DNA of 64,000 nt, from positions 895,283-959,282 of the forward strand of contig NZ_CP072800.1 of the NCBI RefSeq assembly GCF_017901155.1, written 5' to 3'. The DNA comes from Candidatus Thiothrix anitrata (GTDB lineage Bacteria; Pseudomonadota; Gammaproteobacteria; Thiotrichales; Thiotrichaceae). The position numbers and the translations under genes were made by a program. Positions 8,565 through 50,457 of this stretch are shown here, piece by piece (the stretch's first letter is position 1; each line of letters opens with the position of its first letter). The notes beneath the pieces are model-generated. The model was not told the DNA's origin and made no database searches. It worked only from the letters and a program-made list of their open reading frames with translations.

Positions 8565-8697
8565 GGTGAACCTTGTCTGTTGGGTTGCGGTGAAGGATGC
8601 GTGCACATACTAACATTACAGCGGAAAAACATCTGAAGGTTGCATCAATTTTCCTGAACTCAAATAACGAACTAAAAACGAACCACTGATTGCTAAA

Positions 8698-8733: not shown

Positions 8734-8745
8734 GTGGAGTCAATC

Positions 8746-10080: not shown

Positions 10081-10108
10081 AACAGCGGCTGGCACAGGGG
10101 TATAGCTT

Positions 10109-11470: not shown

Positions 11471-11510
11471 AGAACAATCAAGAGGGATAGCTTGATTTGC
11501 TTTAAACAAA

Positions 11511-11532
11511 AACGCCCGCATCAGCGGGCGTT
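11511..11532. terminator. Bidirectional terminator between restriction gene and soeC
   Basis: AACGCCCGC (11511-11519), loop ATCA, GCGGGCGTT (11524-11532) is a perfect 9-bp GC-rich stem. TTTC follows on the plus strand; on the minus strand the stem is followed by TTTTTGTTT. It can end both the rightward restriction operon and the leftward soeABC operon. Confidence 0.85.
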
Positions 11533-11558
11533 TTCACGATCACTCACCACCAGCCAAC

Positions 11559-12542
11559 TTACGTCGCCGCGTAGTAAATGTTCTGTGGATGCCATGCCTG
11601 CGCGAAGAAGAACCAGCGTTCCAGCAACAAGCCAAGGTATTGCACTACAAACGCTATGCTCAACAACATCACGCTGTCATTGCTCCAGCCAAGCACCAGC
11701 AGCGTAACCGGAATCACAAACACTGCAATCGGGAATGCCAGTTTAATCGCTTTAATGACCTGCGGGCTTTGGTGATGGAAAAACTCACGTGTATTGAATG
11801 ACCCACCCATAGCCCCTTGGCTGATTTGGGTAATTTTCGGATGGCGGATGCCAATCGCACTGCACGCAGTGGTTTTACGCTTGATGCGGGCATTACGACG
11901 CAAGGAATACATGCGAGTTGTAAAACCGACCAAGGTAATGATGATCGCCCACATGACGAAGAACATAACCAAATTGCTTTGTTGGGAAGCTGCCAATGCC
12001 GCAGCCAAGGTGAACCCTGATGCGCTGCCCAGCAGCAGATAATTCACCACGGTTAACGGGCTTGCCCATTCTTGGATGAATTTCACCGCCGCGTAAATCA
12101 TGCCGGTACATAGATAGAGTAAGAACGCTAGGACAGTGGCGATAAAACCAACTAATAGTGATAGGTGAATATTTACTGTCCCTGCTGACACTAGCACCGG
12201 ATCAATACCGAAGTAGTACAACGCGCCCCACAAGAAAGCAGCACCACTGAACGCCGGTAGCACAATCACTTCGCGAGCCAGCCAAGACGTGCGCCACATG
12301 GTAGCAGCACGCCATGCCCGCTCAGGTCGTCCCAAGTGAAAGAATGACGCAAACAGTCCCAGTCCCATGAGCAGCATCACCAGTAGTGTGCCGTTCACGT
12401 ATAAATCAACCGGTGGCAATTGCCCACCCAAAATTCCGAACGTACCGTAAACTTGCCCAGTGTACAGTGCCAGAAACAAACCCTGACCTGCGCCAATCAG
12501 CGTGGTCAGAAAAATAACCGAAAATGCCGGATTCATAAGCAA
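11559..12542 (-). CDS. soeC: Sulfite dehydrogenase membrane anchor SoeC (DmsC/NrfD-like)
   Basis: Integral membrane subunit that anchors the cytoplasmic SoeAB enzyme and passes electrons from sulfite oxidation to the quinone pool. The 327 residues contain about eight hydrophobic segments, beginning MLMNPAFSVIFLTTLIGAG, with the GLGLFASFFHLGRPERAWRA motif typical of DmsC-type anchors. It is the last gene of the operon, 8 bases after soeB. DMSO or polysulfide reductase anchors look similar; the SoeA sequence beside it, which lacks a Tat signal, favours sulfite dehydrogenase. Confidence 0.88.
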   Translation of the reverse strand: MLMNPAFSVIFLTTLIGAGQGLFLALYTGQVYGTFGILGGQLPPVDLYVNGTLLVMLLMGLGLFASFFHLGRPERAWRAATMWRTSWLAREVIVLPAFSGAAFLWGALYYFGIDPVLVSAGTVNIHLSLLVGFIATVLAFLLYLCTGMIYAAVKFIQEWASPLTVVNYLLLGSASGFTLAAALAASQQSNLVMFFVMWAIIITLVGFTTRMYSLRRNARIKRKTTACSAIGIRHPKITQISQGAMGGSFNTREFFHHQSPQVIKAIKLAFPIAVFVIPVTLLVLGWSNDSVMLLSIAFVVQYLGLLLERWFFFAQAWHPQNIYYAAT

Positions 12543-12550
12543 TAATCTCC

Positions 12551-13282
12551 TTAGAACAAGAAGTCATCCAGCGATGGCAGGTCGGAATTGACCGCAGGAC
12601 GCTGTTCTTCTTTCTTCAATGGGTTGTCAACACGGTGCAGTGCTTCCTCATCCACATTCGCATGGTTTTTGCGACGTGGCAGGTAATGGTTTGCTGGGCG
12701 CGTACCCCATTCCGGCTGCAACTGATAGCCGCCGCGTTCTGCAATGGCTACGGATACATTGGAATCCGGGTCATGCACATCACCAAACAAGCGTGCACTG
12801 GTGGGGCAAGCCAGCACACACGCGGGTTTGCGGCGTTCTTCCGGCAAGCTGTAGTCGTAAATACGGTCAACGCACAAGGTGCATTTCTTCATTACCTTTT
12901 GCTTGGCATCCAGTTCCCGCGCACCATAAGGACAGGCCCACGAGCAATATTTGCAGCCAATACATTTGTCGTAATCGACCAGTACAATGCCGTCTTCCTT
13001 GCGCTTGTAGCTTGCCCCCGTCGGGCAAACCGGCACGCACGGCGGGTCTTCGCAATGCAGACAGCTTTTCGGGAAATGCACTGTCTCGGTTTTTGGGTAC
13101 TCGCCTACTTCAAAGGTTTGCACACGGTTGAAGAAGGTTCCCGTCGGGTCTTTGCCATACGGGTTCATGTCCACCATGCCACCGCCGCCTTCGCTGGAAG
13201 TGTTCCATTCTTTACATGAGGTGACGCAGGCACTACAGCCGACGCACACATTCAGGTCAATGACTAACGCTAATTGGGTCAT
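12551..13282 (-). CDS. soeB: Sulfite dehydrogenase iron-sulfur subunit SoeB
   Basis: Electron-transfer subunit carrying four [4Fe-4S] clusters between SoeA and SoeC. Cysteine groups visible in order are CVGCSACVTSC, CLHCEDPPCVPVCPTGA, CIGCKYCSWACPYGAR and CTLCVDRIYD followed later by CVLACPTSA. Length 243 fits DmsB-like subunits. There is no signal peptide, so it is cytoplasmic. It starts 2 bases after the soeA stop and ends 8 bases before soeC, so the three are one operon. Confidence 0.93.
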   Translation of the reverse strand: MTQLALVIDLNVCVGCSACVTSCKEWNTSSEGGGGMVDMNPYGKDPTGTFFNRVQTFEVGEYPKTETVHFPKSCLHCEDPPCVPVCPTGASYKRKEDGIVLVDYDKCIGCKYCSWACPYGARELDAKQKVMKKCTLCVDRIYDYSLPEERRKPACVLACPTSARLFGDVHDPDSNVSVAIAERGGYQLQPEWGTRPANHYLPRRKNHANVDEEALHRVDNPLKKEEQRPAVNSDLPSLDDFLF

Positions 13283-13284
13283 GT

Positions 13285-16182
13285 TTATTTCCCCTTAAAC
13301 CGATTTTTGAACAGGCCAGAACCACCAATGAAGGTTTGCCATTTACCGACAGGTTTGGCCATGCCAGGGTAGCGCGGCATGGTTTCAAATTGTGGGAAGG
13401 TGGAGCCTTGTTCAGCATCACTGGCTTTGTATACTTTCACGCGTACATCGAACCATGCCGCTTGGCCGGTAATCGGGTCGGAGTTGGAATAGTGCTGGCC
13501 TTCGGGTTGGTTTGGCAGCTCTTCACCGATAATGTGGTTGAGCAAGAAACCGCGCTGGCATTCGTTGGCATCTTTTTCCAATGCCCACGCGCCAGAGGCT
13601 TTACCAATCGCATTCCAAGTCCACACTGTGTTCGGTTCGACCGATTGGGAGAAGCGGGCTTGGCAGCGTATCCGACCGTGCACAGACTCAACCCATATCC
13701 AGTCGTTATCTTCAAAGCCATTCTTTTCGCCCACGCTGGGGTGCATGTGCAAGTAGTTATGCGCATGAATTTGGCGCAACCACGCATTCTGTGAATCCCA
13801 CGAGTGATACATTGCCATCGGACGCTGGGTCAACGCACTCAGTGGGAATTCCTGTTTATTGATCATCTCGTTTTCGAGCGGCTCGTGGTAGAACGGCAGC
13901 GCATCGAAGAAACGTTCCACCCGTTTACGCAAACGATCCGGCGGCTGCTTGCCGTGCGAAATGCCTTGCGCAGCGCGACGGAATTTATGCAGCACCTCGG
14001 AATACAGGTGAATATTGATTGGTTCGGCGTGACGGGTCATACCGTTGGCTTGCGCCCACTGCAAATAACCCGCGTTCCAGTTACGCATGTACTGGTACGA
14101 CTTCGGCATCACATGGTGGTGCATACAGTTGTTCTTGGCGTACTGTTCCCACTGGTTGGGGTTAGGTTCGCCACGCATGGTTTTCTGCCCGTTTTGCCCG
14201 CGCCAGCCACTTAAGAAACCAATGCCCGAACCGGGGGCGGTTTCAAAATTGACAATGAAATCAGGGTAATCACGGTATTTGCGCTTGCCTTCCTTGTCGG
14301 TAAACGCAGGGAAACCAAGGCGTGAACCCAATTCAATCAGCACTTCTTGGAACGGTTTGCAGTCGCCTGTCACTGGCAAAATCGGAATTCGTACCGAATC
14401 CACCGGGCCGTCGAATTCGGAAATCGGGCGATCCAACATCGACATTACGTCATAGCGTTCCAGATAGGTGGTATCCGGCAGAATCAGGTCGGCAAATGCA
14501 GTCATTTCCGAGTGGAACGCATCGCACACCACCAAAAACGGGATTTTGTACTCGCCGTTTTCGTTTTTGTCCTTGAGCATGTCACGCACATCGGAGGTAT
14601 TCATTGACGAGTTCCATGCCATATTCGCCATGAAAATCAGTAAAGTGTCGAGAGTGTACGGGTCGCCGCGCCAAGCGTTGGTAATTACGTTGTGCATCAA
14701 ACCGTGGACGGACAGCGGGTATTCCCACGAGAAACCTTTATCAATCCGTACCGGTTCACCCTTGTCATCCACGAATAAATCATCCGGGTCAGCAGGCCAG
14801 CCGAGCGGTACGCCTTCCAACGGGGTATTGGGTTTGACATCTTCCGGTTTATTTGGGGTTTTCGGGCACGGTGGAATTGGGCGCGGGTACGGTGCTTTGT
14901 GGCGGAAACCACCGGGGCGGTCAATCGTCCCTAACAACGACATTAGCACACTTAAAGCGCGGATAGTTTGGAAACCGTTGGAATGCGCCGCCAAGCCGCG
15001 CATCGCATGGAATGCCACAGGGTTACCCACTACATGGTCGTGTTCATTGCCCCACACGTCAGTCCAAGCAATCGGTAATTCGATTTTCTGGTCACGCGCT
15101 GTAATCCCCATTTCGTGCGCCAACCGTTTAATGGTTGCCGCCGGGATACCGGTAACGCCTTCCGCCCATTCTGCGGTATAACTTTCCACGCGTTCACGCA
15201 ACAACTGGAACGACGGTTTCACAGGTGTGCCGTCTTTGAGCTTGAATTCGCCAGTCAGGAACGGGTCAGCACCGGGGGTATGGGTGGAAATCGGCTTGTT
15301 GAGGTCACGATCCCACCACAGTTTATTTTGCGGGTCGAAACAGCCTTCTTCAGGCGGCACTTCAAAACGCAGGAACATGCCGTATTCGCTGTTGTTCGGG
15401 TCAAGGTTTACCAGTTCCGGGCCGTTGGTGTAATTCACCACGAAATCGCGGTCGTACAAGCCTTGCTCAATGATTTCGCGGGTAATTGCCAGCAGCAACG
15501 CGCCATCTGTACCGGGGCGGATCGGAATCCATTCATCTGCTACCGCCGCGTAACCAGTGCGCACCGGATTGATCGCAATCATGCGCCCGCCGTTGCGTTT
15601 GAATTCGCCTAGCTCAATTTTCAGCGGGTTGGAATGGTGGTCTTCCGCAGTGCCAATCATTACGAACAATTTTGCGTGATGCAGATCCGGGCCACCGAAT
15701 TCCCAGAAGGAACCACCGATGGTGTAAATCATCCCCGCTGCCATGTTCACGGAACAGAAACCGCCGTGTGCTGCGTAGTTGGGTGTGCCGAATTGCTTGG
15801 CGAATAAACCGGTGAGGGCTTGCATTTGGTCACGTCCGGTGAATAGTCCGAATCTTTTCGGATCAGTTTCACGGATGTGCTTGAGGCGAGTCGCCAGTGT
15901 GTCGAATGCTTCATCCCAAGTAATCGGCTCAAACTGGCCTTCGCCACGGGTGGCATTGGCCTTGCGTTTGAGTGGCTGGGTCAGGCGTGCGGGGGAATAC
16001 TGCTTCATGATGCCGGAGGAACCCTTGGCACAAATCACACCCTTGTTGAGCGGATGGTCAGGATTGCCCTCAATGTATTTCACCTCGCCATTTTTGATGT
16101 GAACATTGATACCGCAGCGGCAGGCACACATGTAGCATGTGGTGCTTTTGATTTCGGTTGCTTGGTTTGTTTGGGTAGTCAT
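13285..16182 (-). CDS. soeA: Sulfite dehydrogenase molybdopterin subunit SoeA
   Basis: Catalytic subunit of the cytoplasmic membrane-bound sulfite-oxidising enzyme SoeABC, which oxidises sulfite directly to sulfate in sulfur oxidisers. It is a 965-residue molybdopterin oxidoreductase of the DMSO reductase/Psr family. The [4Fe-4S] site is C16-x2-C19-x3-C23 with C51. Molybdopterin-binding segments follow (GLFTGRDQMQALTGLF; AAHSNGFQTIRALS), and the C-terminal MGD-binding domain carries the usual NDWIWVES-type strand. No Tat signal is present, matching SoeA rather than periplasmic polysulfide reductases. The closest characterised match from memory is Allochromatium SoeA. An FNR/CRP-like box lies in the 140-base upstream gap. 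Confidence 0.92.
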   Translation of the reverse strand: MTTQTNQATEIKSTTCYMCACRCGINVHIKNGEVKYIEGNPDHPLNKGVICAKGSSGIMKQYSPARLTQPLKRKANATRGEGQFEPITWDEAFDTLATRLKHIRETDPKRFGLFTGRDQMQALTGLFAKQFGTPNYAAHGGFCSVNMAAGMIYTIGGSFWEFGGPDLHHAKLFVMIGTAEDHHSNPLKIELGEFKRNGGRMIAINPVRTGYAAVADEWIPIRPGTDGALLLAITREIIEQGLYDRDFVVNYTNGPELVNLDPNNSEYGMFLRFEVPPEEGCFDPQNKLWWDRDLNKPISTHTPGADPFLTGEFKLKDGTPVKPSFQLLRERVESYTAEWAEGVTGIPAATIKRLAHEMGITARDQKIELPIAWTDVWGNEHDHVVGNPVAFHAMRGLAAHSNGFQTIRALSVLMSLLGTIDRPGGFRHKAPYPRPIPPCPKTPNKPEDVKPNTPLEGVPLGWPADPDDLFVDDKGEPVRIDKGFSWEYPLSVHGLMHNVITNAWRGDPYTLDTLLIFMANMAWNSSMNTSDVRDMLKDKNENGEYKIPFLVVCDAFHSEMTAFADLILPDTTYLERYDVMSMLDRPISEFDGPVDSVRIPILPVTGDCKPFQEVLIELGSRLGFPAFTDKEGKRKYRDYPDFIVNFETAPGSGIGFLSGWRGQNGQKTMRGEPNPNQWEQYAKNNCMHHHVMPKSYQYMRNWNAGYLQWAQANGMTRHAEPINIHLYSEVLHKFRRAAQGISHGKQPPDRLRKRVERFFDALPFYHEPLENEMINKQEFPLSALTQRPMAMYHSWDSQNAWLRQIHAHNYLHMHPSVGEKNGFEDNDWIWVESVHGRIRCQARFSQSVEPNTVWTWNAIGKASGAWALEKDANECQRGFLLNHIIGEELPNQPEGQHYSNSDPITGQAAWFDVRVKVYKASDAEQGSTFPQFETMPRYPGMAKPVGKWQTFIGGSGLFKNRFKGK

Positions 16183-31434: not shown

Positions 31435-32106
31435 TCACGCTTGGCGGTATTTTTGTTGGAATAACTGGTGGGCATGTTCTACCCATGCTTCACAAGGAGC
31501 GGGAGATTCAAGTCCCAATATACGCTGGGTTCGGGTAAAATCATCGCGGGTAAATTCTGCTATCTGGCGGTAAGTCATAATACCCAATGCTTGTAATTTA
31601 CTGGCTAGTGATGGGTTAATGCCTTCAATACGAGTAAGGTCATCTTTGGTTTCAGGCGTTGGTGCGGTGGCGATGGGCAAAATATCAAGGGTGAGCGGGA
31701 TGGGACGTGTTTGTTTGAGGGTGGTTAGTTCCGTTTGCCGTTGTTGCAACTGCCCGCGCACTTGTTGAATCGTTTGTTCTTGTTGGTGTAGCTTTTCCAG
31801 CAATGCTTCGTATTGACGACGGGTATTTTCCAACGCCTTGCGATTTTCCAAAAATTCACCGTAATCGGTTTCAGTCGATAGGTTACTCACTTTACGCAGG
31901 GCATTGTCCATCTGGCGTAATTGTGTGCGTAACGCCAAGTTATCACGTGTGGCATCTTCGTAGTTACGCCGCAAACCTGCTAGTTCGTTTTGGCAGTTGG
32001 TGGCAATGGTAGCGTGGATTTTCCGCGCTCCCCACCAACCTAAAGAGACTCCTGTCATGGCGGCCACTAACAGGAAGAAAGCGATTTGCATGACGAGGTA
32101 TCCCAT
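31435..32106 (-). CDS. TM-coiled-coil-helix-hairpin-helix protein, last gene of the GTPase module
   Basis: An N-terminal membrane helix (QIAFFLLVAAMTGVSLGWWGA) is followed by a long coiled coil (about residues 40-130, with repeated Gln/Leu heptads) and a C-terminal helix-hairpin-helix-like domain, DLTRIEGINPSLASKLQALG, as found in DUF4332 or L21-like tails. The N-terminus resembles the gene at 39406 on the other side of the operon, including the GWW motif and a Cys-then-charged coiled-coil start. Both M1 and M6 could be the start. It begins 3 bases after the OmpA-family gene. Function unknown; a scaffold linking membrane to cytoplasmic partners is a guess. Confidence 0.7.
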   Translation of the reverse strand: MGYLVMQIAFFLLVAAMTGVSLGWWGARKIHATIATNCQNELAGLRRNYEDATRDNLALRTQLRQMDNALRKVSNLSTETDYGEFLENRKALENTRRQYEALLEKLHQQEQTIQQVRGQLQQRQTELTTLKQTRPIPLTLDILPIATAPTPETKDDLTRIEGINPSLASKLQALGIMTYRQIAEFTRDDFTRTQRILGLESPAPCEAWVEHAHQLFQQKYRQA

Positions 32107-32109
32107 GAG

Positions 32110-32844
32110 TTATTCTCTGAAAACGGTGATTTCAATACGTCGATTTTGGGCACGACCTTCCTCGGTATCATTGTCTGCCAACGGACGTGCGGAGCCATAG
32201 CCTTGAGCCTTGACCTGTGTGGCATTAACGCCCTGTGATAGGAGATAGTTGCGCACTGCATCAGCGCGTGCTTGAGTGACCGCCATATTGCCTAGTGCGG
32301 TACTTTGTCTGTCGGTATGGGCAGAAACTTCCACCGTTAAATCAGGGCTTTTACGCAAATGTGTAACCACTTCTTGTAAGGTTTGCACTGCTGTTTCATT
32401 TAACTCAGCTTGAGCGTAAGCAAATTGAACGCCGCTGAGATCAATCTTTTCCACTTCGTGTTGTTTGCTGGGAGCGTATAACCCGTCACTAATGATGGGC
32501 GGCATTTCTAATACATTACTAGCATTGGAGATGCTATTACTGACCAATAGCTGTCCGCTAACATCACGTACTCCGTAGACTTCCCGGCTAATGGCAAGCA
32601 TTTGTTCGGCCTCAACTTCGCTGCTGACTGTGCCACTGAGCGTGCCATCGCGCCCGTTGAATTGAACGTTATTGGCAGAAAAACCTGCTTCCACCAAGGC
32701 TTGACGAGTGCGTTGCAATAAATCAGTTTCAATAGTGGCTTGTTGTGACAACACCGCCACTAACGTCAATGTTGCCACGGATAGGGTAACCATAAGGGTT
32801 AGCACGGGGGTGACGGGCTGTTTAGTTTGTGTTGTATCGACCAT
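32110..32844 (-). CDS. BON-OmpA family envelope protein
   Basis: Residues 10-35 form a single membrane helix (VLTLMVTLSVATLTLVAVLS) without a cleavage site. A BON-like repeat follows (NVQFNGRDGTLSGTVSSEVEA), then a C-terminal OmpA/MotB peptidoglycan-binding domain (VEVSAHTDRQSTALGNMAVTQARADAV and GYGSARPLADNDTEEGRAQNRRIEI). It would tether an inner-membrane machine to the cell wall. I use the ATG at 32844, preceded by GGAG with a 6-base gap; the frame extends to 32868. It is part of the ten-gene leftward operon, after a 206-base gap from the LysM protein that may hold an internal promoter. Confidence 0.85.
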   Translation of the reverse strand: MVDTTQTKQPVTPVLTLMVTLSVATLTLVAVLSQQATIETDLLQRTRQALVEAGFSANNVQFNGRDGTLSGTVSSEVEAEQMLAISREVYGVRDVSGQLLVSNSISNASNVLEMPPIISDGLYAPSKQHEVEKIDLSGVQFAYAQAELNETAVQTLQEVVTHLRKSPDLTVEVSAHTDRQSTALGNMAVTQARADAVRNYLLSQGVNATQVKAQGYGSARPLADNDTEEGRAQNRRIEITVFRE

Positions 32845-33050
32845 CTGAAACTCCATCTTTCGCTGCATAATCCATGAATATAGACCAACGATGTATTTAT
32901 GTAGATTAAGAATTGTCGATGATAACTGCGAGAGGTGCGTGGATAGAGGGACTTAATCAGCAGATGAGCAGAGTAACTCACTGCTTTTTTTAAAGAATTA
33001 GATGGTATGAGTGAGGGATGGGTCACCGAGGATGACCCATAAAAACAACC

Positions 33051-34238
33051 TTAGGCAATAAAAGAGAGGATTTCTTCAGCTTCTTGGCGTTGGCGTGAGC
33101 CACCTTCGGCGATTACTTCACGTAAAATTTCGGCCGCTGCTTCCGGTTCACGCAGGTCAAGGTAGGCACGTGCAATGTCTAGCTTGAGTTCTGCTTCTGG
33201 ATCTTCAGGAATGATTTCCACCGGTACGGTAGGTTCTTCTGTTGGTAAGGCGACACTGCTGATCGGTGGTGTGCTAGTATCAGAATAACTGACCGGATCG
33301 TTGGATTTAGGTGCAGGCATCACCGCTGCTGATTTAGGTGGGGCAACAACCGTTTTGATGCGCGGTTCTTCGCGATTACGTTTGAGTAACCACAGTAACG
33401 GTAGCATGAGGAGCGCGAGCAGACCCAGTAATGTCCAAGGTAACCAACTGCTACCGGCTGATTTCTTTTCAGTAATCGTGAGGGAGGCATGGGCGCGTTG
33501 CAGATCGCTATTCAGCAAGTTGTTTTGACGTTTGAGTTCATCCAATTGGGCTTTCAGTTCGGTGGTCGCCGTAGTGCTTTCTTCTAAGGCTTGTTTAGCA
33601 GAACTTAATTGAGACTTGAGTTCGGTATTTTCGGTTTGTAAGGCACTCATGTCTGTTTTAAGTGCCGTTAAAGTAGCCGTCTCGTTGCCGCTGGAGGTTG
33701 TGTTGCCCACACCTTCATTAGTGAGCTTGCTCTCTAGTTCTTTAACTTTTTCACTGAGCTGGGTGAGTTCGGACTCTTTAGCTTGTTTGTTGGTCTCATA
33801 ATCTTTAACCATTTCCTGCAAGTCGGCATTTTCTTCTTCCAGCAGTTTTAGGGTTTCTTCCATCTCCTTAAGTTCAGTTTCAAGGGATTGCAGCCGTTCT
33901 AGTGCGACTTTATCAGTTGTGCCTGTGGCTGGAGGTGGTGCTGGTGGTTTTAGATCAGGAATGCTACTGGCTTCGGGTAATGTCAGAATTTTGCCGACAA
34001 TCAGGCGGTTAATATTGGAGCCGATGAAAGCATCTGGATTGGCTTTGAGAATGGCCTGCATAATCGCGTTACGATTGGCGTAGCCCGGATACTGTTTGGC
34101 AACAACAAGTCCTAGGGTGTCGTTGGATTTGATTTCCCATGTTTTTTCTTCTGCACTGGCTATTCCCGGTGCAGATAAACTCAGCGCAATTAGAGAGCTG
34201 AGTAGGGCGAGTCGGATTGTGTGGCGATTTGTTTTCAT
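33051..34238 (-). CDS. FimV-like protein: LysM, coiled coil, TM and helical C-terminal domain
   Basis: Signal peptide at residues 1-29 (ending GIASA), a LysM-like FimV N-terminal domain (TWEIKSNDTLGLVVAKQYPGY to IVGKILTLP), a Pro-rich spacer, a coiled coil of about 130 residues, a membrane helix (WLPWTLLGLLALLMLPLLWLL) and a cytoplasmic tail with a FimV C-terminal type helical repeat (LDIARAYLDLREPEAAAEIL). FimV proteins bind peptidoglycan at cell poles and organise type IV pili and polar regulators. At 395 residues it is much shorter than classical FimV. It starts 2 bases after the PhnD-like gene stop in the same operon, linking the wall to the cytoplasmic GTPase module. Confidence 0.85.
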   Translation of the reverse strand: MKTNRHTIRLALLSSLIALSLSAPGIASAEEKTWEIKSNDTLGLVVAKQYPGYANRNAIMQAILKANPDAFIGSNINRLIVGKILTLPEASSIPDLKPPAPPPATGTTDKVALERLQSLETELKEMEETLKLLEEENADLQEMVKDYETNKQAKESELTQLSEKVKELESKLTNEGVGNTTSSGNETATLTALKTDMSALQTENTELKSQLSSAKQALEESTTATTELKAQLDELKRQNNLLNSDLQRAHASLTITEKKSAGSSWLPWTLLGLLALLMLPLLWLLKRNREEPRIKTVVAPPKSAAVMPAPKSNDPVSYSDTSTPPISSVALPTEEPTVPVEIIPEDPEAELKLDIARAYLDLREPEAAAEILREVIAEGGSRQRQEAEEILSFIA

Positions 34239-34240
34239 GG

Positions 34241-34987
34241 CTAGTTAACCAGTGTATCCATCAGATCAATCATAAATTCGGTGTCTTCTTGCCCCTGCAA
34301 TTCCCAACCTTGTAAGCCCATGCTGTCTAATACACCTTGGGCTTTAGGATTCGCTGTCATGGCAGGCAATAAGTCACGCAAATTCTGATAATGCGGTTGC
34401 ATTCGTGGCCCCGCCAATAAAACATGACGGATGACATAAATTTCGCTACGAATCAACTCACGTAGCTGTTTACTCACCATACCAGAAAGCCCGCTGAAGG
34501 CATCTTGCAGAAAAAAACCAACATCAGCTTTGCCGCGTAGTAATTGTCCAGCGACCAGCGCATAGGTGCTGACAGTTTGAACCTCAACATTGGCAGGAGA
34601 AAGGTCAGCCGGTTCCAACATAATCATGGAAATTAGATTGACATCGGGGTCGTCGGTAGTGGCAATGCGGATGCCTGGTTGTAAATCTTCAACCCGTTGT
34701 ACCAGAGAGCCTGCTGCAACGGCAATGATAGCTTCATCCGATTTGCTTAAGGGGGCGGAAATTGCTACAAATCCCTGTTCACGCACTAACATCGCGGCAT
34801 CGAACGGATTAGCATAAATCAAATCGATTTCTTGATTGAGTATTGCTGTGCGCTGGCTAGCAAAGTCAGGGTAGAGTTCCAAATGGATATGCTCACCCAA
34901 TTGGCGTTGTAGCCAAGTATTAAAGATATACCAACCGGCAATTTTTGCGGGTGGGAAATCTGGGCTAACGGTCATTACATAACGCAT
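34241..34987 (-). CDS. PhnD-like phosphate/phosphonate binding-protein domain without signal peptide
   Basis: The 248-residue sequence has the periplasmic binding-protein type II fold of the PhnD family (VSPDFPPAKIAGWYIFNTWL; LYANPFDAAMLVR-like IYANPFDAAM). It starts directly at the first strand with no signal peptide or lipobox, so it should stay in the cytoplasm. A cytoplasmic ligand sensor within a signalling operon is more likely than a transporter subunit; no permease or ATPase is encoded nearby. It is flanked at 2-6 bases by the LysM-TM and PAS genes. The ligand is unknown. Confidence 0.75.
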   Translation of the reverse strand: MRYVMTVSPDFPPAKIAGWYIFNTWLQRQLGEHIHLELYPDFASQRTAILNQEIDLIYANPFDAAMLVREQGFVAISAPLSKSDEAIIAVAAGSLVQRVEDLQPGIRIATTDDPDVNLISMIMLEPADLSPANVEVQTVSTYALVAGQLLRGKADVGFFLQDAFSGLSGMVSKQLRELIRSEIYVIRHVLLAGPRMQPHYQNLRDLLPAMTANPKAQGVLDSMGLQGWELQGQEDTEFMIDLMDTLVN

Positions 34988-34993
34988 TGCCGT

Positions 34994-35479
34994 TTACTCC
35001 TCAGCCTGTTTCATTTGTGCGTAAAGTGCAATACACTCTTCCACTTTAGCGCGAGAAGGTTTGCGCCGTACTGACGTTAAGCCAACGGGTTGGCCATTAC
35101 GCATATTGAGAATAATGGTGGCATACACCCAGTAATAACGTCCGTCTTTGCGTAAGTTTTTTACGTAACCATGCCATTTGATGCCTTTACCCGCAGTTTC
35201 CCACGCATCCTGAAAAGCCGCCTTCGGCATATCAGGGTGGCGCAGGATGTAGTGTGGCTGACCAATCAGTTCGGCCTCGGTGTAGCCTGACATGTCCACG
35301 AAAGCTTGATTGCAATGAGTAATCGTTCCCTGCAAATCGGTGCGGGAAACAATCAACTTGCCTTCAGGAAATGGTACTTCCTCGTCTTTAACGAGCACGT
35401 ACCGTGAAGAACCATCATAGTATCGCTGTAAGTACCGGACATAAGGCTTCTGCACCTGCTGAATGGTCATGTCTTCCAT
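34994..35479 (-). CDS. Stand-alone Aer-type PAS domain protein
   Basis: 161 residues that consist of a PAS domain like the sensory domain of the aerotaxis receptor Aer: FPEGKLIVSRTDLQGTITHC, NQAFVDMSGYTEAELIGQPH, LRHPDMPKAAFQDAW and YYWVYATIILNMRNGQPVG, ending VRRKPSR. Aer-type PAS domains bind FAD and sense redox state. No HAMP or signalling domain is attached, so it must act through partners, probably other products of this operon. The gap to the roadblock gene upstream is 62 bases. Confidence 0.88.
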   Translation of the reverse strand: MEDMTIQQVQKPYVRYLQRYYDGSSRYVLVKDEEVPFPEGKLIVSRTDLQGTITHCNQAFVDMSGYTEAELIGQPHYILRHPDMPKAAFQDAWETAGKGIKWHGYVKNLRKDGRYYWVYATIILNMRNGQPVGLTSVRRKPSRAKVEECIALYAQMKQAEE

Positions 35480-35541
35480 CGCCGTTTCCTCTCATTCCGT
35501 TATCTGCCTTGTGCCGATACGGAGTCATCTTTATGTGGTGC

Positions 35542-35904
35542 TTAGATGATTTTTCCAATGTTTTCAGCGGCGCGTTTTACATCCAAGAAAATCAGTCCGA
35601 GACGGGCATTGGGTTTAGCCAATACGGTAACTACCGCTTCTTTACCAGCGTGAGTCATTAAGATGTAGCCACGTGCACCTTTGATCAGCACTTGTTCCAA
35701 TGCACCACGTGCCAGTTCTTCAGCGGTACGATCACCGAGTGACAACATCGCGGCACTCATTGCACCTACGCGGTCTTCATCCATACCGCCGGGCAGTAAA
35801 GAAGCCATCATTAGGCCATCTGTGGATAGTACCGCAGAGGCTTCGATGTCCGCAGAGGAACCATTTAAATCACTCAGGATTGAGTTAAGCATTTCAGAGC
35901 GCAT
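35542..35904 (-). CDS. Roadblock/LC7 domain protein (MglB-like)
   Basis: A 120-residue single roadblock/LC7 domain: ASAVLSTDGLMMASLLPGGMDEDR, MSAAMLSLGDRTAEELARG, GYILMTHAGKEAVVTVLA, followed by GLIFLDVKRAAENI. MglB and CvnB proteins of this fold bind small Ras-like GTPases as activators or GAPs. AAGGAG lies 9 bases before the ATG. The GTPase is encoded two genes upstream in the same operon, which strongly suggests they are partners. Confidence 0.88.
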   Translation of the reverse strand: MRSEMLNSILSDLNGSSADIEASAVLSTDGLMMASLLPGGMDEDRVGAMSAAMLSLGDRTAEELARGALEQVLIKGARGYILMTHAGKEAVVTVLAKPNARLGLIFLDVKRAAENIGKII

Positions 35905-35928
35905 GTCGTTTATTCTCCTTTGTGTTCA

Positions 35929-36576
35929 TCAAACAGGTATTTCAGTCTTGCCGTAACGCATTTCCAACGCCCAGACCAAGCGTTTAAAGCCAGGTTGGTT
36001 GAATTGGGGAATGCCGCCAATAATTAAAGTAAAGCGATTTTGCCCAATGTACAGTGGCCAAAAGCCAACTTCGCTGTTGCCGCTTGCATCGACTAATCCC
36101 CATGCCCGCTGGCGATAGCCGAGATTACCTTGCAAGAGTTCCTTGTGGCGTGCATAAACAGCGGTCAGGTTGGCACTGAGTGCCGCCAGCTCCTCTGCGG
36201 CTTCATGGGTATAACCCGCACTACCAAGGTATAGGCCGCGACTTTCTGCAAGGATAGCCTTGCCTTCATCCGACATGGTGCGCAACAGTTGTGGTAGCAG
36301 GCGTTCCAAGGTTTCGTGCGGTGCTCTTTCACTGTGTTCTAAGCCAAGAACCAACCCGGCCTCTTGCAACCAGTGGACGAATTCGAGAGCGCGTTTCTTT
36401 TTGTAGCCACTTAATTCACAGGCAATACCAACGTTGAACAACGGGGTTTCCGCTTCTTGCATTAAGCGGTGCAAAAAATCACGCCCCGGCTCGTCAGCTT
36501 TGTCCTGTACGGCATAATACGTGCCACCCGGCGTAATGCCCAGATACAGATTTTCGGTGAGTATGTACTCGCTCAT
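35929..36576 (-). CDS. Unknown protein: winged-helix-like N-terminus plus degenerate roadblock-like C-terminus
   Basis: 215 residues. The first ~85 look like a helical/winged-helix module (FNVGIACELSGYKKKRALEF, WLQEAGLVLG). The C-terminal half resembles a roadblock fold (AILAESRGLYLGSAGYTHEAA, then WGLVDASGNSEVGFWPLY and RFTLIIGGIPQF), so it may pair with the upstream or downstream roadblock protein. The ATG overlaps the GTPase stop (TAATG, 36574-36578), indicating coupled translation. No named family is recognised. The roadblock reading is my inference and needs a structure prediction. Confidence 0.6.
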   Translation of the reverse strand: MSEYILTENLYLGITPGGTYYAVQDKADEPGRDFLHRLMQEAETPLFNVGIACELSGYKKKRALEFVHWLQEAGLVLGLEHSERAPHETLERLLPQLLRTMSDEGKAILAESRGLYLGSAGYTHEAAEELAALSANLTAVYARHKELLQGNLGYRQRAWGLVDASGNSEVGFWPLYIGQNRFTLIIGGIPQFNQPGFKRLVWALEMRYGKTEIPV

Positions 36577-37118
36577 TAGTTTGTCACTCCAGGATCCAGT
36601 GAAAACAGCAGAGCCTGAATCAACATGGTGACATCCTTGTGGCTGCGAGCATCGACTTCAAAGACGGGTGCTTGCAAAGAAAGTGACTCCAGACACTGCC
36701 GGTAATCAGCCAAACCCGGTTTACGTAACAAATCCATACGGGTTACACCGACTACCATTTGTTGCTTTTCGATAAAATCACGGAATGCGTTTGTGTAAAA
36801 ACGCATGTCTTGAAAAGGGTCTTTGCGAGTGTTATCCAGCATTAACACCAGACCAATTCCCCCTTTAGTAAGAATATCCCACATAAAGTCGAAACGTTCC
36901 TGACCGGGCGTGCCGTACAAATGTACCCGTTCGTTGTCTCCTAGGCGTATCAGGCCGTAGTCCATTGCGACTGTAGTTTGAGGCTTACGGCTCTTGGTCA
37001 TATCCGAAGCGTATTCATCCGTGGTAATCGGCTTTATATCGCTGATGGAGGAAATCGCGGTGGTCTTGCCCGCTCCGACCGGTCCGGTAAAAATAATTTT
37101 GCGATTAATTATGCTCAT
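36576..37118 (-). CDS. Small Ras-like GTPase, COG2229 / MglA-CvnD type
   Basis: 180 residues with P-loop GPVGAGKT (12-19), a Thr-rich switch I, GTPGQERF (69-76) as the G3 motif, and GVTRMD (124-129) where Ras has NKxD. This pattern is that of prokaryotic COG2229 GTPases, including the CvnD proteins of Streptomyces conservons, which act with roadblock partners. The missing Asn/Lys of NKxD suggests altered base recognition. It lies 2 bases after the receiver-like gene and overlaps the next gene, placing it at the centre of the operon. Confidence 0.9.
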   Translation of the reverse strand: MSIINRKIIFTGPVGAGKTTAISSISDIKPITTDEYASDMTKSRKPQTTVAMDYGLIRLGDNERVHLYGTPGQERFDFMWDILTKGGIGLVLMLDNTRKDPFQDMRFYTNAFRDFIEKQQMVVGVTRMDLLRKPGLADYRQCLESLSLQAPVFEVDARSHKDVTMLIQALLFSLDPGVTN

Positions 37119-37120
37119 AA

Positions 37121-38482
37121 CTATTTTGCGCCCCCTCCCAACAGACGCTTCAACAGACGTGAGAATAAGCCTCTGCTTTCCTTAGGCTTTTCCTTTTCTC
37201 GACTCTTGAGTTTTGTCTGATCCAATTCAAACAGGTTAAGTGTGTTCGCTGCCGTATAGAAAGAAAATACGTAACGTTGCGGTATATTCAATGCCTTGGC
37301 GATTTCCAAAGGCGTGCTAGGACGTTGATTCCATAAAGCGGCGATACGCGTCACTTGTGGAAACTGTTCTATGCGTGTCAGATTGGGCCAGTACTTAAGA
37401 GCAATACGTTGCTTGATGTCGACGTGACGGCTAAGCCGCCCTTGTGCGGTCAGTAGGCTGATTACCCATAGGAATGCCTCCATATCCAGTAGGCGCGAAG
37501 AATTATCATGGATTTGTGCTTCATGTGCTAAACGCTCGGTGCTACTGAGAATATGCAGAGCCACTTGTCCGGGTTGTACGGGGTTGTTACACAGCATGGC
37601 AAAGGTGTCGGAGCTGGTGTTTAGTGTGCAGTAAACTTGGTGGGTTTCTGGCATTAGTAATGCGTAATCACCGCCCGGTAATTTAAGTTCAACTTGTTGG
37701 TTGGATTGTCTTGCTAAGCGCACAGCTTCTTGCACGTTGGTCAGCAAGTAGTTTTCCGGGGTAAATAAAATGGCTTCCAGATGCCAGTCGGTCATGTCAT
37801 TTATATCTTCACGGTCACCACACAGTTCACGCCAGCGATGTTCTGCTATTTCGGGAGATATATCGTCAGTGACCGGACGCGCAACCTCCTCCATTGAGAT
37901 GTTGTGCTCAGCGGGATCAAAAACAACTTCCGGCTCTGGCGTTGCGGTTGGCGGTTGTACAACAACAGGTGGCTCATCATCCTCGTCATCATCCAAATTC
38001 AGTACCACAGTGCGCGGTTTATACACTGTGCGTTTCGCAACGCCAAAGGGTTGCGGAAACTGGGTATCCAGTGGCGAAGCGGCAGGGCTGTCAGTATTTT
38101 CCTTGGGAGTATCTGCTTGATGTAATAACGGGGTTGCCGCAGTGGATTGGGTGTTAGTAGCTAACAGTTGCTGTACGCGCTCCGCTGCATCAGTAAGTGC
38201 TCTAGAGGTCAGTGGTTTGGCAATCCAGATAGCATTTGTTAATTCGATAGGATGCACGGAAAGAATAATGCCGGGTTTTCCACTGGGAGCGTGTTGCTCC
38301 CACTCCTCACGTGCGCCAACATGATCGTAGTCAACAATTAATGCTTTGGCATCATCCAAAGTCACCGCTTTGAATAAATTGCGACCAGCAGCTGCGAAGA
38401 AAAACTCTAAAATCGCCCGGTTATGTGGGCTAATGCTCAAAAGGGCGACCTTCAGTGGGTCTGTTTTAGCATGTGTCAGCAT
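37121..38482 (-). CDS. Receiver-like / Pro-rich linker / winged-helix protein of the GTPase module
   Basis: 453 residues in three parts. Residues ~10-110 look like a response-regulator receiver fold (VALLSISPHNRAILEFFF, ALIVDYDH, GIILSVHPIELT, AIWIAKPLTSRALTDAAE); a D-x-D and the Lys of a K-P motif are present, so phosphorylation is possible. Residues ~110-215 are a Pro/Asp-rich disordered linker (LNLDDDEDDEPPVVVQPPTA). The C-terminus (about 230-430) ends in a helical DNA- or protein-binding like segment (STPLEIAKALNIPQRYVFSF) and a basic tail. The layout recalls RomR, which works with MglA/MglB, though sequence similarity is not claimed. Confidence 0.6.
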   Translation of the reverse strand: MLTHAKTDPLKVALLSISPHNRAILEFFFAAAGRNLFKAVTLDDAKALIVDYDHVGAREEWEQHAPSGKPGIILSVHPIELTNAIWIAKPLTSRALTDAAERVQQLLATNTQSTAATPLLHQADTPKENTDSPAASPLDTQFPQPFGVAKRTVYKPRTVVLNLDDDEDDEPPVVVQPPTATPEPEVVFDPAEHNISMEEVARPVTDDISPEIAEHRWRELCGDREDINDMTDWHLEAILFTPENYLLTNVQEAVRLARQSNQQVELKLPGGDYALLMPETHQVYCTLNTSSDTFAMLCNNPVQPGQVALHILSSTERLAHEAQIHDNSSRLLDMEAFLWVISLLTAQGRLSRHVDIKQRIALKYWPNLTRIEQFPQVTRIAALWNQRPSTPLEIAKALNIPQRYVFSFYTAANTLNLFELDQTKLKSREKEKPKESRGLFSRLLKRLLGGGAK

Positions 38483-38506
38483 AGATCCAGCCTGTTTCTC
38501 ATTTTT

Positions 38507-39226
38507 TTACCAACTCTCGGATTCTTGCTGTTTCTCCAACCACATGGGGGAGAGTTCGCGTCCTGCTGCCTGTAGATGTGTGATCATGGCATCCAAGCGT
38601 CCTTTGTCACGGGTGTATTGATAAATGCTCACCAACTCCTGTTCCATTGCTTCGTCTGTATTCCCTGACTGTATTTCGGTTTCGAGTAATTCGCGGGCGG
38701 TATCAATTTGTCCGTACTCAAGGCACGCGACCACTTCTGCCATGACATCAGTATACTGCGCCGTTTCTTGGCCACGTTCAATGCGTAACAGATTTGCTGT
38801 TGCTGCTTCCTGACCAGATGCCAGCAATGATCCCATACGCCACTTCATCGTTGCACCGCTGAAAGTGCTTCCCTGTTCCAGCCATTCATTGAAAAAGACA
38901 CCATCTTCACTGCTCAGTTGATCTTTGGTGAGCTCCAATAAGTGGGCGCGCAACTGCTGACCGGAATTGCCGAGTGCGATAAAAATATCTTGCAGGCTAC
39001 CCGCTAGCCGCTCTTGCAGTGATTCGCCTTGTGCCAGCAGAATACGTTGTGTATGCGCTCGCAGATCTTGAGGGTAACGCCGAATGTGGTGCGATAAAAA
39101 TCCCCACGCACGCTCTGGCGCACTACTTAGATCAATCTTTAGCCGTTTTTCATTGGCTAAGGTGAATGTAAAAGGTAATTCTGGTGGAGTTTGTGTTTCT
39201 CCCCCGCGTAGCAACTTTTCAAGCAT
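38507..39226 (-). CDS. FimV-type helical-repeat protein, first gene of the GTPase module
   Basis: 239 residues, no signal peptide or membrane segment. The C-terminal half is made of short helical pairs like TPR/FimV C-terminal repeats (SGATMKWRMGSLLASGQEAA, LEYGQIDTARELLETEI, LVSIYQYTRDKGRLDAMI). It would be a cytoplasmic adaptor. No family name is certain. It begins the leftward operon, about 180 bases from the divergent TM-coiled-coil gene; both promoters must lie in that AT-rich gap. Confidence 0.65.
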   Translation of the reverse strand: MLEKLLRGGETQTPPELPFTFTLANEKRLKIDLSSAPERAWGFLSHHIRRYPQDLRAHTQRILLAQGESLQERLAGSLQDIFIALGNSGQQLRAHLLELTKDQLSSEDGVFFNEWLEQGSTFSGATMKWRMGSLLASGQEAATANLLRIERGQETAQYTDVMAEVVACLEYGQIDTARELLETEIQSGNTDEAMEQELVSIYQYTRDKGRLDAMITHLQAAGRELSPMWLEKQQESESW

Positions 39227-39364
39227 AGTTCGGAACCGTAAAAAGTACTCGTTCTATATAGCCGAATTTTCTGTGTGTAGCAGAAGTTTTTTTGATCATA
39301 GTCTATAAATAAGTGCGGAAAATATTTTTCAGATGAAAGGTATCGCACCCTAGTTGCCTGATAC

Positions 39365-39373
39365 TGCTAGAAT
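39365..39373 (+). promoter_or_regulatory. Extended -10 promoter for the TM-coiled-coil/bactofilin genes
   Basis: TGCTAGAAT is an extended -10 element (TGn plus TAGAAT) about 33 bases before the ATG at 39406, in the AT-rich divergent intergenic region. The -35 is poor. The leftward operon promoter must lie in the same region but I could not place it with confidence. Confidence 0.4.
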
Positions 39374-39405
39374 ATTACGTTGTAAGAATGCGCAGGGAAT
39401 TGCCG

Positions 39406-39795
39406 ATGTTTTACTTAGTCTCTCAAATTGCACTAATTTTGGTCATTGCGGTATTAGCAGGCTTGGCTGTAGGTTGGTGGGTGCGTGGTTGGTTACCGAC
39501 AGGCGGGAGTTTTGCGGTCAAAACTTTGCCGGATGATCCATTTGATGCGCGTTTTCGTTTGGAACAGTGTCATCGTGATAATTCCGCATTGCGCCGTGAC
39601 CTCAAAGAAGCGGAAGCGCAAGTAGAAAAGCTGAAAGGCCGTTTGGAGAATGCGGAAACCTCTGATGGGGATGTGCAGGAACGTCTGGAAATAGCCGAGG
39701 TTCGGGTGCAGGCACTGTTGGAGGATTTGCAGTTACGCGATGATACTGTCGCAGCATTAGAACAAGAGTTGTTATTGTTGCGTTCCAAGGCATGA
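39406..39795 (+). CDS. Membrane-anchored coiled-coil protein, paralogue of the 31435-32106 product
   Basis: 129 residues: one membrane helix (SQIALILVIAVLAGLAVGWW) and then a coiled coil (NSALRRDLKEAEAQVEKL, further heptads to the end). The N-terminus and the GWW motif resemble the last gene of the operon, so the two are paralogues that flank it. I prefer the ATG at 39406 with AGGGA upstream; ATG at 39388 is in frame. The bactofilin gene follows by 70 bases. Confidence 0.7.
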   Translation: MFYLVSQIALILVIAVLAGLAVGWWVRGWLPTGGSFAVKTLPDDPFDARFRLEQCHRDNSALRRDLKEAEAQVEKLKGRLENAETSDGDVQERLEIAEVRVQALLEDLQLRDDTVAALEQELLLLRSKA

Positions 39796-39865
39796 TGTTT
39801 TGCCGGAGTCCTGCTACTATCGTTGGGACAAACGAATCCTTACTGACTTGCCAACAAGGTATACC

Positions 39866-40219
39866 ATGTCCAGCAAAAACTCTTCTTCCGCTTCCGTGCT
39901 TGAGCATAATGTTGAAATCGTTGGCGATATTTCGTTCAATGGTAACCTTTATTTGCAGGGGCGTGTGAATGGCAATGTGGTAGCCCCGGCGGATTCCACC
40001 GCAACGTTATACGTGCAAGAAGGCAGTGAAATTGTCGGTGAGTTGCGTGCGCCCACGATTGTCGTTGCCGGTAAAATTGCGGGCGATGTGTTTGTTTCTA
40101 AACATATTTCCCTTAAAGCGAGTGCTAATGTTGTCGGTAATATTCACTATGCTGAGCTACAAATTGAGGAGGGGGCAAGCGTGAATGGCACGCTCACTCG
40201 CTTGAGTGTGGCTGACTAA
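39866..40219 (+). CDS. Bactofilin (polymer-forming cytoskeletal protein)
   Basis: 117 residues with the DUF583/bactofilin right-handed beta-helix: NVEIVGDISFNGNLYLQGRV, GNVVAP, GSEIVGELRAPTIVVAGKI, GDVFVSKHISLKASANVVGN, AELQIEEGASVNG. Bactofilins polymerise without nucleotide into cell-pole or membrane scaffolds; in Myxococcus BacP positions a small GTPase (SofG) for pilus localisation. The start at 39866 has AAGG 7 bases upstream; the open frame begins earlier. Its position beside a GTPase/roadblock operon supports a shared role in polarity. Confidence 0.88.
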   Translation: MSSKNSSSASVLEHNVEIVGDISFNGNLYLQGRVNGNVVAPADSTATLYVQEGSEIVGELRAPTIVVAGKIAGDVFVSKHISLKASANVVGNIHYAELQIEEGASVNGTLTRLSVAD

Positions 40220-50149: not shown

Positions 50150-50259
50150 AATTCTTGCGGATGCCCTGAATTAATGAAACCCATGCACTTTACGGGAAAC
50201 TGCCGCAGACTTCCATAATGTTTGACACCCTAAGCACAATCCCGTACCTTGCCGCGCTG

Positions 50260-50372
50260 TTCAGGTGCCTGCTGATCAGTGGATGGGAGCAGGATAAATG
50301 GGAAACTGGTGCAAAACCAGTGCTGCCCTCGCAACGGTGAGCGTTCACGCAAGCCCGATACCAGCCTGACAA
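50260..50372 (+). promoter_or_regulatory. Cobalamin (AdoCbl) riboswitch controlling btuB-btuM
   Basis: The leader carries the B12 aptamer elements in order: CAGGTGCC at 50262 on, ATGGGAA at 50298-50304, GGTG-CAAAA-CCAG and GTGCTGCCCTCGCAAC (the conserved core), and the closing AGCCCGATACCAGCCT near 50352-50367. Between the aptamer and the btuB ATG is a GTGCGC/GCGCAC hairpin (50421-50437), which could be part of the expression platform. High cobalamin would turn down btuB and btuM. Confidence 0.93.
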
Positions 50373-50457
50373 CGTGCGGTGTGTTTACCCTTGAAACGAA
50401 CACTACCGTTACCAGTCATGGTGCGCGATGGGCGCACAATACGGAAAACCACATACC

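Follow-up and report, generated by a model that had tools for sequence, protein, structure and literature searches.

A Group 3 MglA-type GTPase operon of Candidatus Thiothrix anitrata with a predicted redox sensor and adjoining FimV-like and bactofilin genes

Introduction

What does a bacterial small GTPase respond to, and which machinery does it direct, when its gene lies among those of a putative redox sensor, a polar landmark-like protein and a scaffold protein? This question is raised by a locus of Candidatus Thiothrix anitrata (Thiotrichales; Thiotrichaceae), which lies in a 64,000-nucleotide stretch of contig NZ_CP072800.1 (assembly GCF_017901155.1, positions 895,283 to 959,282, forward strand); we refer to this whole stretch as the window and use its coordinates throughout. 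Between positions 31435 and 40219, it holds ten tightly packed minus-strand genes and a divergent plus-strand pair, encoding an MglA-family GTPase, two roadblock proteins, a receiver-bearing protein, an Aer-type PAS protein, a PhnD-like protein, a FimV-like protein and a bactofilin, among others. An initial annotation, made from the letters alone, had proposed a sensory GTPase module for which no described system was known. Here, we report that the core of this operon is very probably of a known kind, and that the genes around it suggest both a signal and a place of action.

Group 3 MglA systems of beta- and gammaproteobacteria were described by Wuichet & Sogaard-Andersen (2014; PMC4316618). 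According to the parts of that description available to us, their GTPases are marked by GTPGQ in the G3 motif, DAR in G5 and a G4 motif without lysine; they are accompanied by one or two MglB proteins with an Asp-Gly pair, and their third partner consists of a receiver-like N-terminus, a variable linker and a conserved C-terminus. Such systems occur in many of these bacteria; in the same parts of the description, the signal is not named and the output is a proposal.

Loci and samples

Homologous loci (numbered with L, their genomes with G) were gathered in overlapping sets and annotated with sequence profiles. A named scan kept 80 loci from at least 590. A class-wide draw found a GTPase match in 75 of 370 genomes and yielded 82 annotated loci; this class sample omits 19 matches weaker than about 1e-45, the match in G339, a second match in G085 (L052), the window's own genome (G000) and G030, and a locus from a same-genus genome outside the 370 (L031) stands in it for the window. 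Since the named set, the class sample and the family loci share genomes (L041 and L100, for example, are identical, and L105 and L179 lie on contigs of equal length), their counts must not be summed. The class sample falls into 37 type A loci with a gene for the long roadblock protein (21 families, including L196 as a doubtful member), 18 type B loci with a different third roadblock-like gene (13 families) and 27 others; contig ends hide genes in some loci.

Results and discussion

A conserved operon of the Group 3 MglA kind

All twelve open reading frames of the initial annotation are present at the locus (Table 1), and the gaps along the minus-strand row are short, measuring 24, 2, -1, 24, 62, 6, 2, 182 and 3 bp in transcription order. 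The GTPase was matched in all 15 genomes of the same genus and in 42 of 44 genomes of the same family that were searched, two of the 42 having just a longer paralogue of about 50% identity. The claim that the genes form one conserved unit is borne out: the order receiver protein, GTPase, short roadblock protein is kept in 24 of 24 Thiotrichaceae loci, the long roadblock gene is present in 23 (it is missing in L054), and the first gene of the row, gene 1, in 20, the remaining four lying near contig ends. Beyond the family, homologues are not confined to unlinked positions in unrelated settings, as the linkage holds across many families. The operon is thus real and conserved, not a product of chance. 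In one of the 24 loci (L034, from the same-genus genome G004), the GTPase frame is fused to the receiver frame with an internal stop, reflecting a sequencing error or damage.

In an alignment of 14 sequences, the GTPase shows the G3 motif GTPGQ, with P71 and G72 invariant and G69, T70 and Q73 nearly so, two invariant threonines (T48, T49) in G2 and an invariant D156 and R158 in the DAR of G5, which in the window's protein reads VDARS. Its G4 motif is TRMD in the window, without the usual lysine. The marks of Group 1, an arginine finger in G2 and TVPGQ in G3, do not occur in this GTPase, which has TT and GTPGQ instead. MglA structures are among its profile matches, and the loci matched in the named scan include Neisseria and Snodgrassella loci with the same layout.

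Both proposed roadblock partners of the GTPase hold up. The shorter one, a product of 120 residues, is recognized by the Robl_LC7 model and has an invariant D29-G30 pair in 14 aligned members. The longer one, encoded at 35929, reaches 14 bits with Robl_LC7, which the Pfam cut-off misses; its AlphaFold2 model (mean predicted local distance difference test score, pLDDT, 94.2; predicted template modelling score, pTM, 0.89) shows a roadblock domain at residues 87-210. Its best structure matches (Foldseek, VIA-align) are MglB and other roadblock proteins, with Z 10.9, a root-mean-square deviation (rmsd) of 3.2 and 108 aligned residues for 3kye_A, and Z 10.4, rmsd 3.1 and 113 aligned residues for MglB 6hjm_A. 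Judged by its predicted structure, it is a roadblock protein.

The protein encoded at 37121 (AlphaFold2 mean pLDDT 83.3, pTM 0.63) begins with a receiver domain of about 118 residues and continues through a disordered linker into a C-terminal part that is ordered; residues 8-117 match known receivers with a best Z of 11.9, rmsd 2.1 and 108 aligned residues. The initial annotation had called this layout RomR-like. The layout itself stands; the comparison with RomR is superseded because RomR partners a Group 1 GTPase, whose marks the window's GTPase lacks. D53, K89 and P90 are identical in 42 of 42 sequences of this family. In the window's protein, the acidic pocket of the receiver is not kept, which makes its phosphorylation doubtful.

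Taken with the description of 2014, as far as its available parts go, these features place the receiver-linker protein, the GTPase and the two roadblock proteins with high confidence among the Group 3 MglA systems already known. The idea of a system that is new in kind, and with it the earlier statement that no described system matches, was dropped, since the four-gene core fits those systems. Natural fusions are suggestive, and no more than that, of contacts within this core. In Thiotrichaceae paralogues of 327-383 residues (L058, L059, L061-L063), the GTPase has a C-terminal extension that looks weakly roadblock-like (10.8% probability and E 0.0029 against a roadblock profile, with Robl_LC7 under its cut-off in L058), and in L064 and L065 a receiver-GTPase fusion scores 68% in profile comparison. 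As a variation on the core, L055, L189 and L226 have two adjoining GTPase genes around a single receiver protein.

Gene 1 often accompanies this core: in the class sample, 33 of the 37 loci of type A have it, and the receiver protein is found in 36. A Pfam scan of its product gave no model over the cut-off. Its family profile, searched against four sequences, matches the long FimV protein encoded elsewhere in the window's genome with 46.1 bits in total (best stretches 31.6 and 16.1), and the matched region consists of tetratricopeptide repeat (TPR) stretches in the cytoplasmic part of FimV. Myxococcus xanthus offers a parallel: there, MglA-GTP is bound by an effector, the TPR protein SgmX, which stimulates the formation of pili, according to the available part of its description (PMC7519303); by analogy, gene 1 is a candidate for the GTPase effector.

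An Aer-type PAS protein and its PhnD-like companion

One of the two sensory inputs foreseen in the initial annotation is the PAS protein. It matches the PAS domain of the Escherichia coli aerotaxis receptor Aer (PDB 8dik) with an E-value of 3e-33. In Aer, H53 lies stacked beneath the flavin, R57 forms a salt bridge with the phosphates of flavin adenine dinucleotide (FAD), W70 forms a stack with the adenine and R115 points towards N5, as stated in the part of the structural report available to us (PMC9668731). The equivalent residues H76, R80, W93 and R138 are kept in 96, 100, 100 and 100% of 47 family members, and the position of Aer M69 is an alanine in the window's protein and mostly a leucine in the family. 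E. coli Aer and the operon protein thus share the PAS domain and its FAD-contact residues, whereas the operon protein is free-standing and cytoplasmic and lacks a chemoreceptor part. An input of redox or oxygen state through this predicted FAD binder appears rather likely from its sequence.

The PhnD-like protein, in agreement with the earlier claim, carries no export signal: the window's protein has no hydrophobic N-terminus, and the N-terminal peak hydropathy of 41 members has a median of 0.34 and a maximum of 2.62, reached by one outlier, compared with 1.86 for a FimV control. Family scans of the operon products gave no ABC model over the cut-off, so the protein does not fit the PhnD of a phosphonate ABC transporter, and no PDB sequence matched the protein at E 0.001. 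Among all loci with a GTPase profile match, PAS and PhnD-like genes occur together in 46 of the 48 loci that have either, mostly within 50 bp of each other. The same seven-gene row, including both, spans Halothiobacillus, Methylomonas, Chromatiaceae and Sphaerotilus. The thought that the pair might be a genus-specific addition was given up for this reason.

Exchangeable sensor genes around a persistent core

Aer-type PAS genes are not the only sensor genes at this position. Within 6 kb and on the same strand, 20 of the 37 type A loci in the class draw, from 13 of 21 families, carry at least one gene for an Aer-type PAS, a protoglobin, an ODP or a CZB protein (15, 5, 1 and 1 loci, respectively; PhnD-like genes are found in 15), and so do 38 of 60 type A loci in the named set. 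Pfam confirmed the protoglobin, ODP and CZB identities for representatives, and the protoglobin genes lie between or beside the roadblock genes. Across whole genomes, 5 of 56 protoglobin matches fall within 5 kb of the GTPase, where a rough calculation leads one to expect about 0.18. On the tree of type A GTPases, the presence of PAS changes at least nine times and that of protoglobin four times; the sensors therefore come and go while the core persists. In two loci without these sensors, L211 (9663-10889, by Pfam) and L212 (similar by its first residues), a FIST-domain gene follows the short roadblock gene.

A FimV-like and bactofilin layer in two lineages

The association with landmark, envelope and scaffold genes proposed for the window extends well beyond it. 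All 16 loci from seven Thiotrichaceae genera have a FimV-like gene behind the operon, a bactofilin gene flanks the operon in 15 of them, the 16th being near a contig end, and the small divergent coiled-coil gene, the BON-OmpA gene and the helix-hairpin-helix-like coiled-coil gene are found in 13, 9 and 6 of the 16. The window's FimV-like protein scores 45.9 bits with the C-terminal model TIGR03504 (cut-off 30.65) and 42.2 bits with the core model TIGR03505, just under its cut-off of 43.45. Like FimV/HubP landmarks, it has a transmembrane segment and a C-terminal FimV TPR domain, preceded by a putative FimV core; unlike them, it is a short paralogue in a GTPase operon, and a separate long FimV is encoded elsewhere in the genome.

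Beyond this family, the two genes were looked for in 88 type A loci, of which 53 came from the named set, 33 from the class sample and two from elsewhere, with genomes partly shared. A single one, L107 of Sphaerotilus natans, has both FimV-like and bactofilin genes in the operon, and 87 have neither there; in two of these, a weak match to bactofilin lies on the opposite strand at a distance of 5-7 kb. An earlier notion of a layer restricted to Thiotrichaceae was abandoned on account of L107. The genus of S. natans has the GTPase in 13 of 13 genomes (E < 1e-84), together with PAS, PhnD-like and FimV-like genes in all 13 and bactofilin in 12, the 13th being cut by a contig end. In this row (L107 7088-14153; L289-L291, L305, L320-L328), bactofilin, TPR, receiver, GTPase, two roadblock, PAS, PhnD-like and FimV-like genes follow each other in one direction. 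The core FimV model is over its cut-off in 5 of 5 proteins checked from this genus and the C-terminal model in 2 of 5. In seven other long-roadblock loci from the family of S. natans (L292-L298), the genes are arranged differently, and both the FimV-like and the bactofilin gene are missing. In one Sphaerotilus-genus locus (L290 4589-6391, G487), the PhnD-like match is broken into two parts separated by about 1 kb, as though the gene had been disrupted. PAS and PhnD-like genes thus belong to a widespread form of the operon, and FimV-like and bactofilin genes are a lineage-specific layer. Sphaerotilus, Leptothrix and Thiothrix all grow as filaments within sheaths.

Did the two lineages acquire this layer together or separately? 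In a tree of three core proteins from 78 loci, the Sphaerotilus genus stands beside the Thiotrichaceae (SH-like approximate likelihood ratio test, SH-aLRT, 91, not starred). Its operon bactofilin groups with non-operon bactofilins of both lineages, separated from the Thiotrichaceae operon bactofilins by a branch of 99*, and it runs in the operon's own direction, whereas the Thiotrichaceae gene is divergent. The FimV-like proteins of the two groups match each other with 23 bits, no better than either matches canonical FimV. Because the cores are neighbours in the tree and the bactofilins are not, the recruitment looks convergent: in the simplest reading of these sequences, related cores would have recruited a landmark and a scaffold twice, which we judge the most surprising part of our findings. 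The proteins compared are short, long branches were noted, and one of the operon copies may have evolved faster. An exchange of the core alone between the two lineages is possible from the trees. Forcing the Sphaerotilus-genus core into one clade with seven other Burkholderiales loci was rejected by the approximately unbiased (AU) test (p-AU 0.012), for a grouping that was chosen after a tree had been viewed, includes possible paralogues and has long branches; the G+C content of the Sphaerotilus operon shows no trace of transfer (70.5%, against 69.8% in its flanks). A single transfer of the whole nine-gene cassette is not favoured, as the two groups do not have each other's closest bactofilins.

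A proposed redox-gated switch and its possible outputs

We propose that the operon encodes an MglA-type Group 3 switch whose nucleotide state would be set by the oxygen or redox state of the cell. The cytoplasmic PAS protein, placed in the Aer family and keeping its FAD-contact residues, would bind FAD and report respiration or redox. Together with the PhnD-like protein, it may act on both roadblock proteins, that is, the MglB-like putative GTPase-activating protein and the long roadblock protein, and/or on the receiver-linker protein, as we infer from the conserved operon with its exchanged sensor genes. Once loaded with GTP, the GTPase would bind an effector, for which the TPR product of gene 1 is the most likely candidate by analogy with the MglA-SgmX pair. 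In Thiotrichaceae and the Sphaerotilus genus, the associated FimV-like protein and bactofilin may place the output at the poles or cell junctions, and the machine under control, for which support is weak, would probably be surface movement by type IV pili or the organization of poles or filaments. The complete chain, in which redox or oxygen gates an MglA switch and this switch controls machinery bound to the poles or the envelope, probably for surface motility, strikes us as about evenly poised; that the output lies at poles, junctions or surface motility is, taken by itself, a tentative assignment, as was the role in polarity or surface movement put forward in the initial annotation. With considerable doubt, one may go further and think of an aerotaxis without chemoreceptors, in which free Aer-type PAS, globin, ODP or CZB proteins plug into one MglA switch, sheathed filaments of two classes have each on their own linked a bactofilin and a FimV-type landmark to this switch, and oxygen or redox sets polarity, reversal or junction function in a multicellular filament.

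For the link to pili, there are hints, none of which is proof, and support is again weak. In L178 (G222, 8067-14454), an operon with a protoglobin gene runs directly into pilB-, pilC- and pilD-type genes. PilM is found in 70 of 75 GTPase carriers and in 205 of 295 other genomes, a difference confounded by small genomes without pili. In Snodgrassella, a carrier of a Group 3 system, a point mutation in an orphan mglB changed soft-agar spreading, which was read as dependent on type IV pili in the part of the report available to us (PMC11112851).

Several observations weigh against the proposed chain. Whole-genome scans show no enrichment of ODP genes around the GTPase (1 of about 64 strong matches) and hardly any of CZB genes (2 of about 88). 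None of the four sensors lies near 17 of the 37 type A loci, some of which are close to contig ends and one of which, L038, is from Thiotrichaceae. The sensors had seemed confined to type A (20 of 37 loci against 0 of 18 in type B, Fisher 4.6e-5), yet the profiles had been built mostly from type A neighbours, and a Pfam scan of 25 unassigned type B operon genes turned up two Bac_globin genes; the contrast shrinks to at most 20 of 37 against 2 of 18, with a p of 0.003 that is no true probability, the loci being related. The globin link may thus extend to type B, which fits the oxygen theme. Finally, the FimV-like and bactofilin genes are missing in 8 of 8 loci of one Thiotrichaceae genus, some of them cut by contig ends.

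A rival output would be transcription. It was proposed for Group 3 by the authors of 2014, and a winged helix is predicted in the C-terminal region of the receiver-linker protein, in the available parts of that work (PMC4316618). The GTPase would then gate gene action by redox, and FimV-like, OmpA and bactofilin genes would be mere neighbours. The C-terminal region of the window's protein is well ordered in its model, in agreement with this, but its tail, with the consensus GLLxRLLxRL, looks amphipathic here and in several more of the 42 sequences, if not in all of them, and suits membrane binding; moreover, FimV-like and bactofilin genes were seemingly recruited twice. We therefore consider transcription control unlikely. 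That these flanking genes, the coiled-coil genes included, stand beside the operon by descent, without a functional tie, would agree with the divergent orientation of the Thiotrichaceae bactofilin, the 182-bp gap before the BON-OmpA gene and the absence of several flanking genes in some genera. It is fairly improbable given that the FimV-like gene starts 2 bp after the PhnD-like gene in the window, that it follows the core even in genera without PAS and PhnD-like genes, and that the Sphaerotilus operon is flanked by a bactofilin from another lineage and a FimV-like gene, both co-directional.

The PAS and PhnD-like proteins might instead sense the energy state and a small ligand and thereby control second messengers or envelope metabolism, neither motility nor polarity being involved. 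PhnD-like proteins are ligand binders by family and regular companions of the PAS gene, and one GGDEF/EAL gene lies within a type B operon. Against such a metabolic branch, no recurrent cluster of neighbours was read as GGDEF/EAL, though most clusters were not family-scanned and receiver-bearing proteins are scattered around 20 of 80 loci, and the landmark and bactofilin genes do not fit, which leaves it distinctly improbable.

Relation to known systems

The redox-gated switch proposed here resembles the Group 3 systems of 2014 in GTPase motifs, receiver-linker protein, paired roadblock proteins, linkage and taxonomic range; it differs in its PAS, PhnD-like, TPR, globin, ODP, CZB, FimV-like and bactofilin partners, none of which is named in the available parts of that description (PMC4316618). 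Nor did we find a paper that joins Group 3 MglA with Aer-type PAS, PhnD, FimV or bactofilin among the titles and beginnings of abstracts searched, which mostly leave subscription papers uncovered. The Group 1 module of M. xanthus (MglA, MglB, RomR and SgmX) likewise combines a small GTPase, a roadblock GTPase-activating protein, a receiver protein and a TPR effector, the last according to the available part of PMC7519303, and is set apart by its arginine finger and TVPGQ. Actinobacterial conservons (CvnABCD) are also operons of a GTPase, a roadblock protein and accessory signalling proteins; family scans of our twelve products detected no sensor histidine kinase of the CvnA type, and the sensor is a soluble PAS protein instead. 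We know of no Aer-type PAS, PhnD or FimV partner of the M. xanthus Group 1 module. A heme sensor coupled to a roadblock domain is seen in HGbRL of Methylacidiphilum (PMC4476040, in the part available), albeit as a single fused protein, in another phylum and with another sensor family.

The signal suggested by the Aer-type PAS and by the exchangeable globin, ODP and CZB genes is one that bench experiments could probe. If our proposal is true, it gives concrete genes to the long-standing question of how non-flagellated gliding filaments, the sulfur bacteria of oxygen-sulfide boundaries, sense oxygen and turn. The repeated recruitment of a FimV-like protein and a bactofilin by sheathed filamentous groups so far apart would be one of few instances in which convergence has joined a GTPase with a polar landmark and a cytoskeletal scaffold.

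Features of the locus

Table 1. The twelve genes of the locus, the minus-strand row in transcription order, followed by the divergent pair (window coordinates)
Position	Strand	Product	Basis
38507..39226	-	Gene 1, 239 aa, FimV-type TPR stretch, cytoplasmic; candidate effector/adaptor	Family profile against long FimV
37121..38482	-	Receiver, disordered linker and C-terminal domain protein, Group 3 MglA type	AlphaFold2, structure matches
36576..37118	-	MglA-family small GTPase (GTPGQ, TRMD, DAR)	Family scan, motifs, MglA structures among profile matches
35929..36576	-	Long roadblock protein (ROBLlong): N-terminal helical domain, roadblock 87-210	AlphaFold2, structure matches
35542..35904	-	MglB-like roadblock protein, 120 aa	Robl_LC7 E 5.6e-15
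34994..35479	-	Aer-type PAS protein, predicted FAD redox sensor	PDB match 8dik, FAD-contact residues
34241..34987	-	PhnD-like (Phosphonate-bd) protein without export signal	PF12974 E 1.5e-35
33051..34238	-	FimV/HubP-like: putative N-terminal FimV core, coiled coil, transmembrane segment, C-terminal FimV TPR domain	TIGR03504, TIGR03505
32110..32868	-	BON-OmpA protein, N-terminal hydrophobic stretch	OmpA E 5.8e-21, BON E 1.4e-6
31435..32106	-	Transmembrane coiled-coil protein, helix-hairpin-helix-like C-terminus	HhH models under cut-off
39388..39795	+	Small transmembrane coiled-coil protein, divergent	13/16 FimV-bearing family loci
39800..40219	+	Bactofilin, divergent, likely start near 39866	PF04519 E 1.2e-24

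Family scans were over the cut-off for a Ras/ATP_bind_1-type GTPase, Robl_LC7 (35542 product), PAS, Phosphonate-bd, the FimV C-terminal domain, BON with OmpA, and bactofilin; for the products at 38507, 37121, 35929 and 31435, they gave no model over it. The bactofilin probably starts at an internal ATG near 39866, since its orthologue in L031 has 123 residues.

Among type B loci, L197, L210, L216, L227 and L237 have a gene for about 440-465 residues beside the GTPase gene; in L227, a Bac_globin gene is present as well. By Pfam, 5 of the 25 type B neighbours, one of them in L197, contain ABC_tran and dual-specificity phosphatase domains. Distant from the operon, the window's genome carries an orphan roadblock gene (G000:C1:2424719-2424964) and a lone protoglobin gene (G000:C1:2450419-2450871), about 25 kb apart. 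A cobalamin riboswitch is found in the window at 50245-50383 on the plus strand (71 bits).

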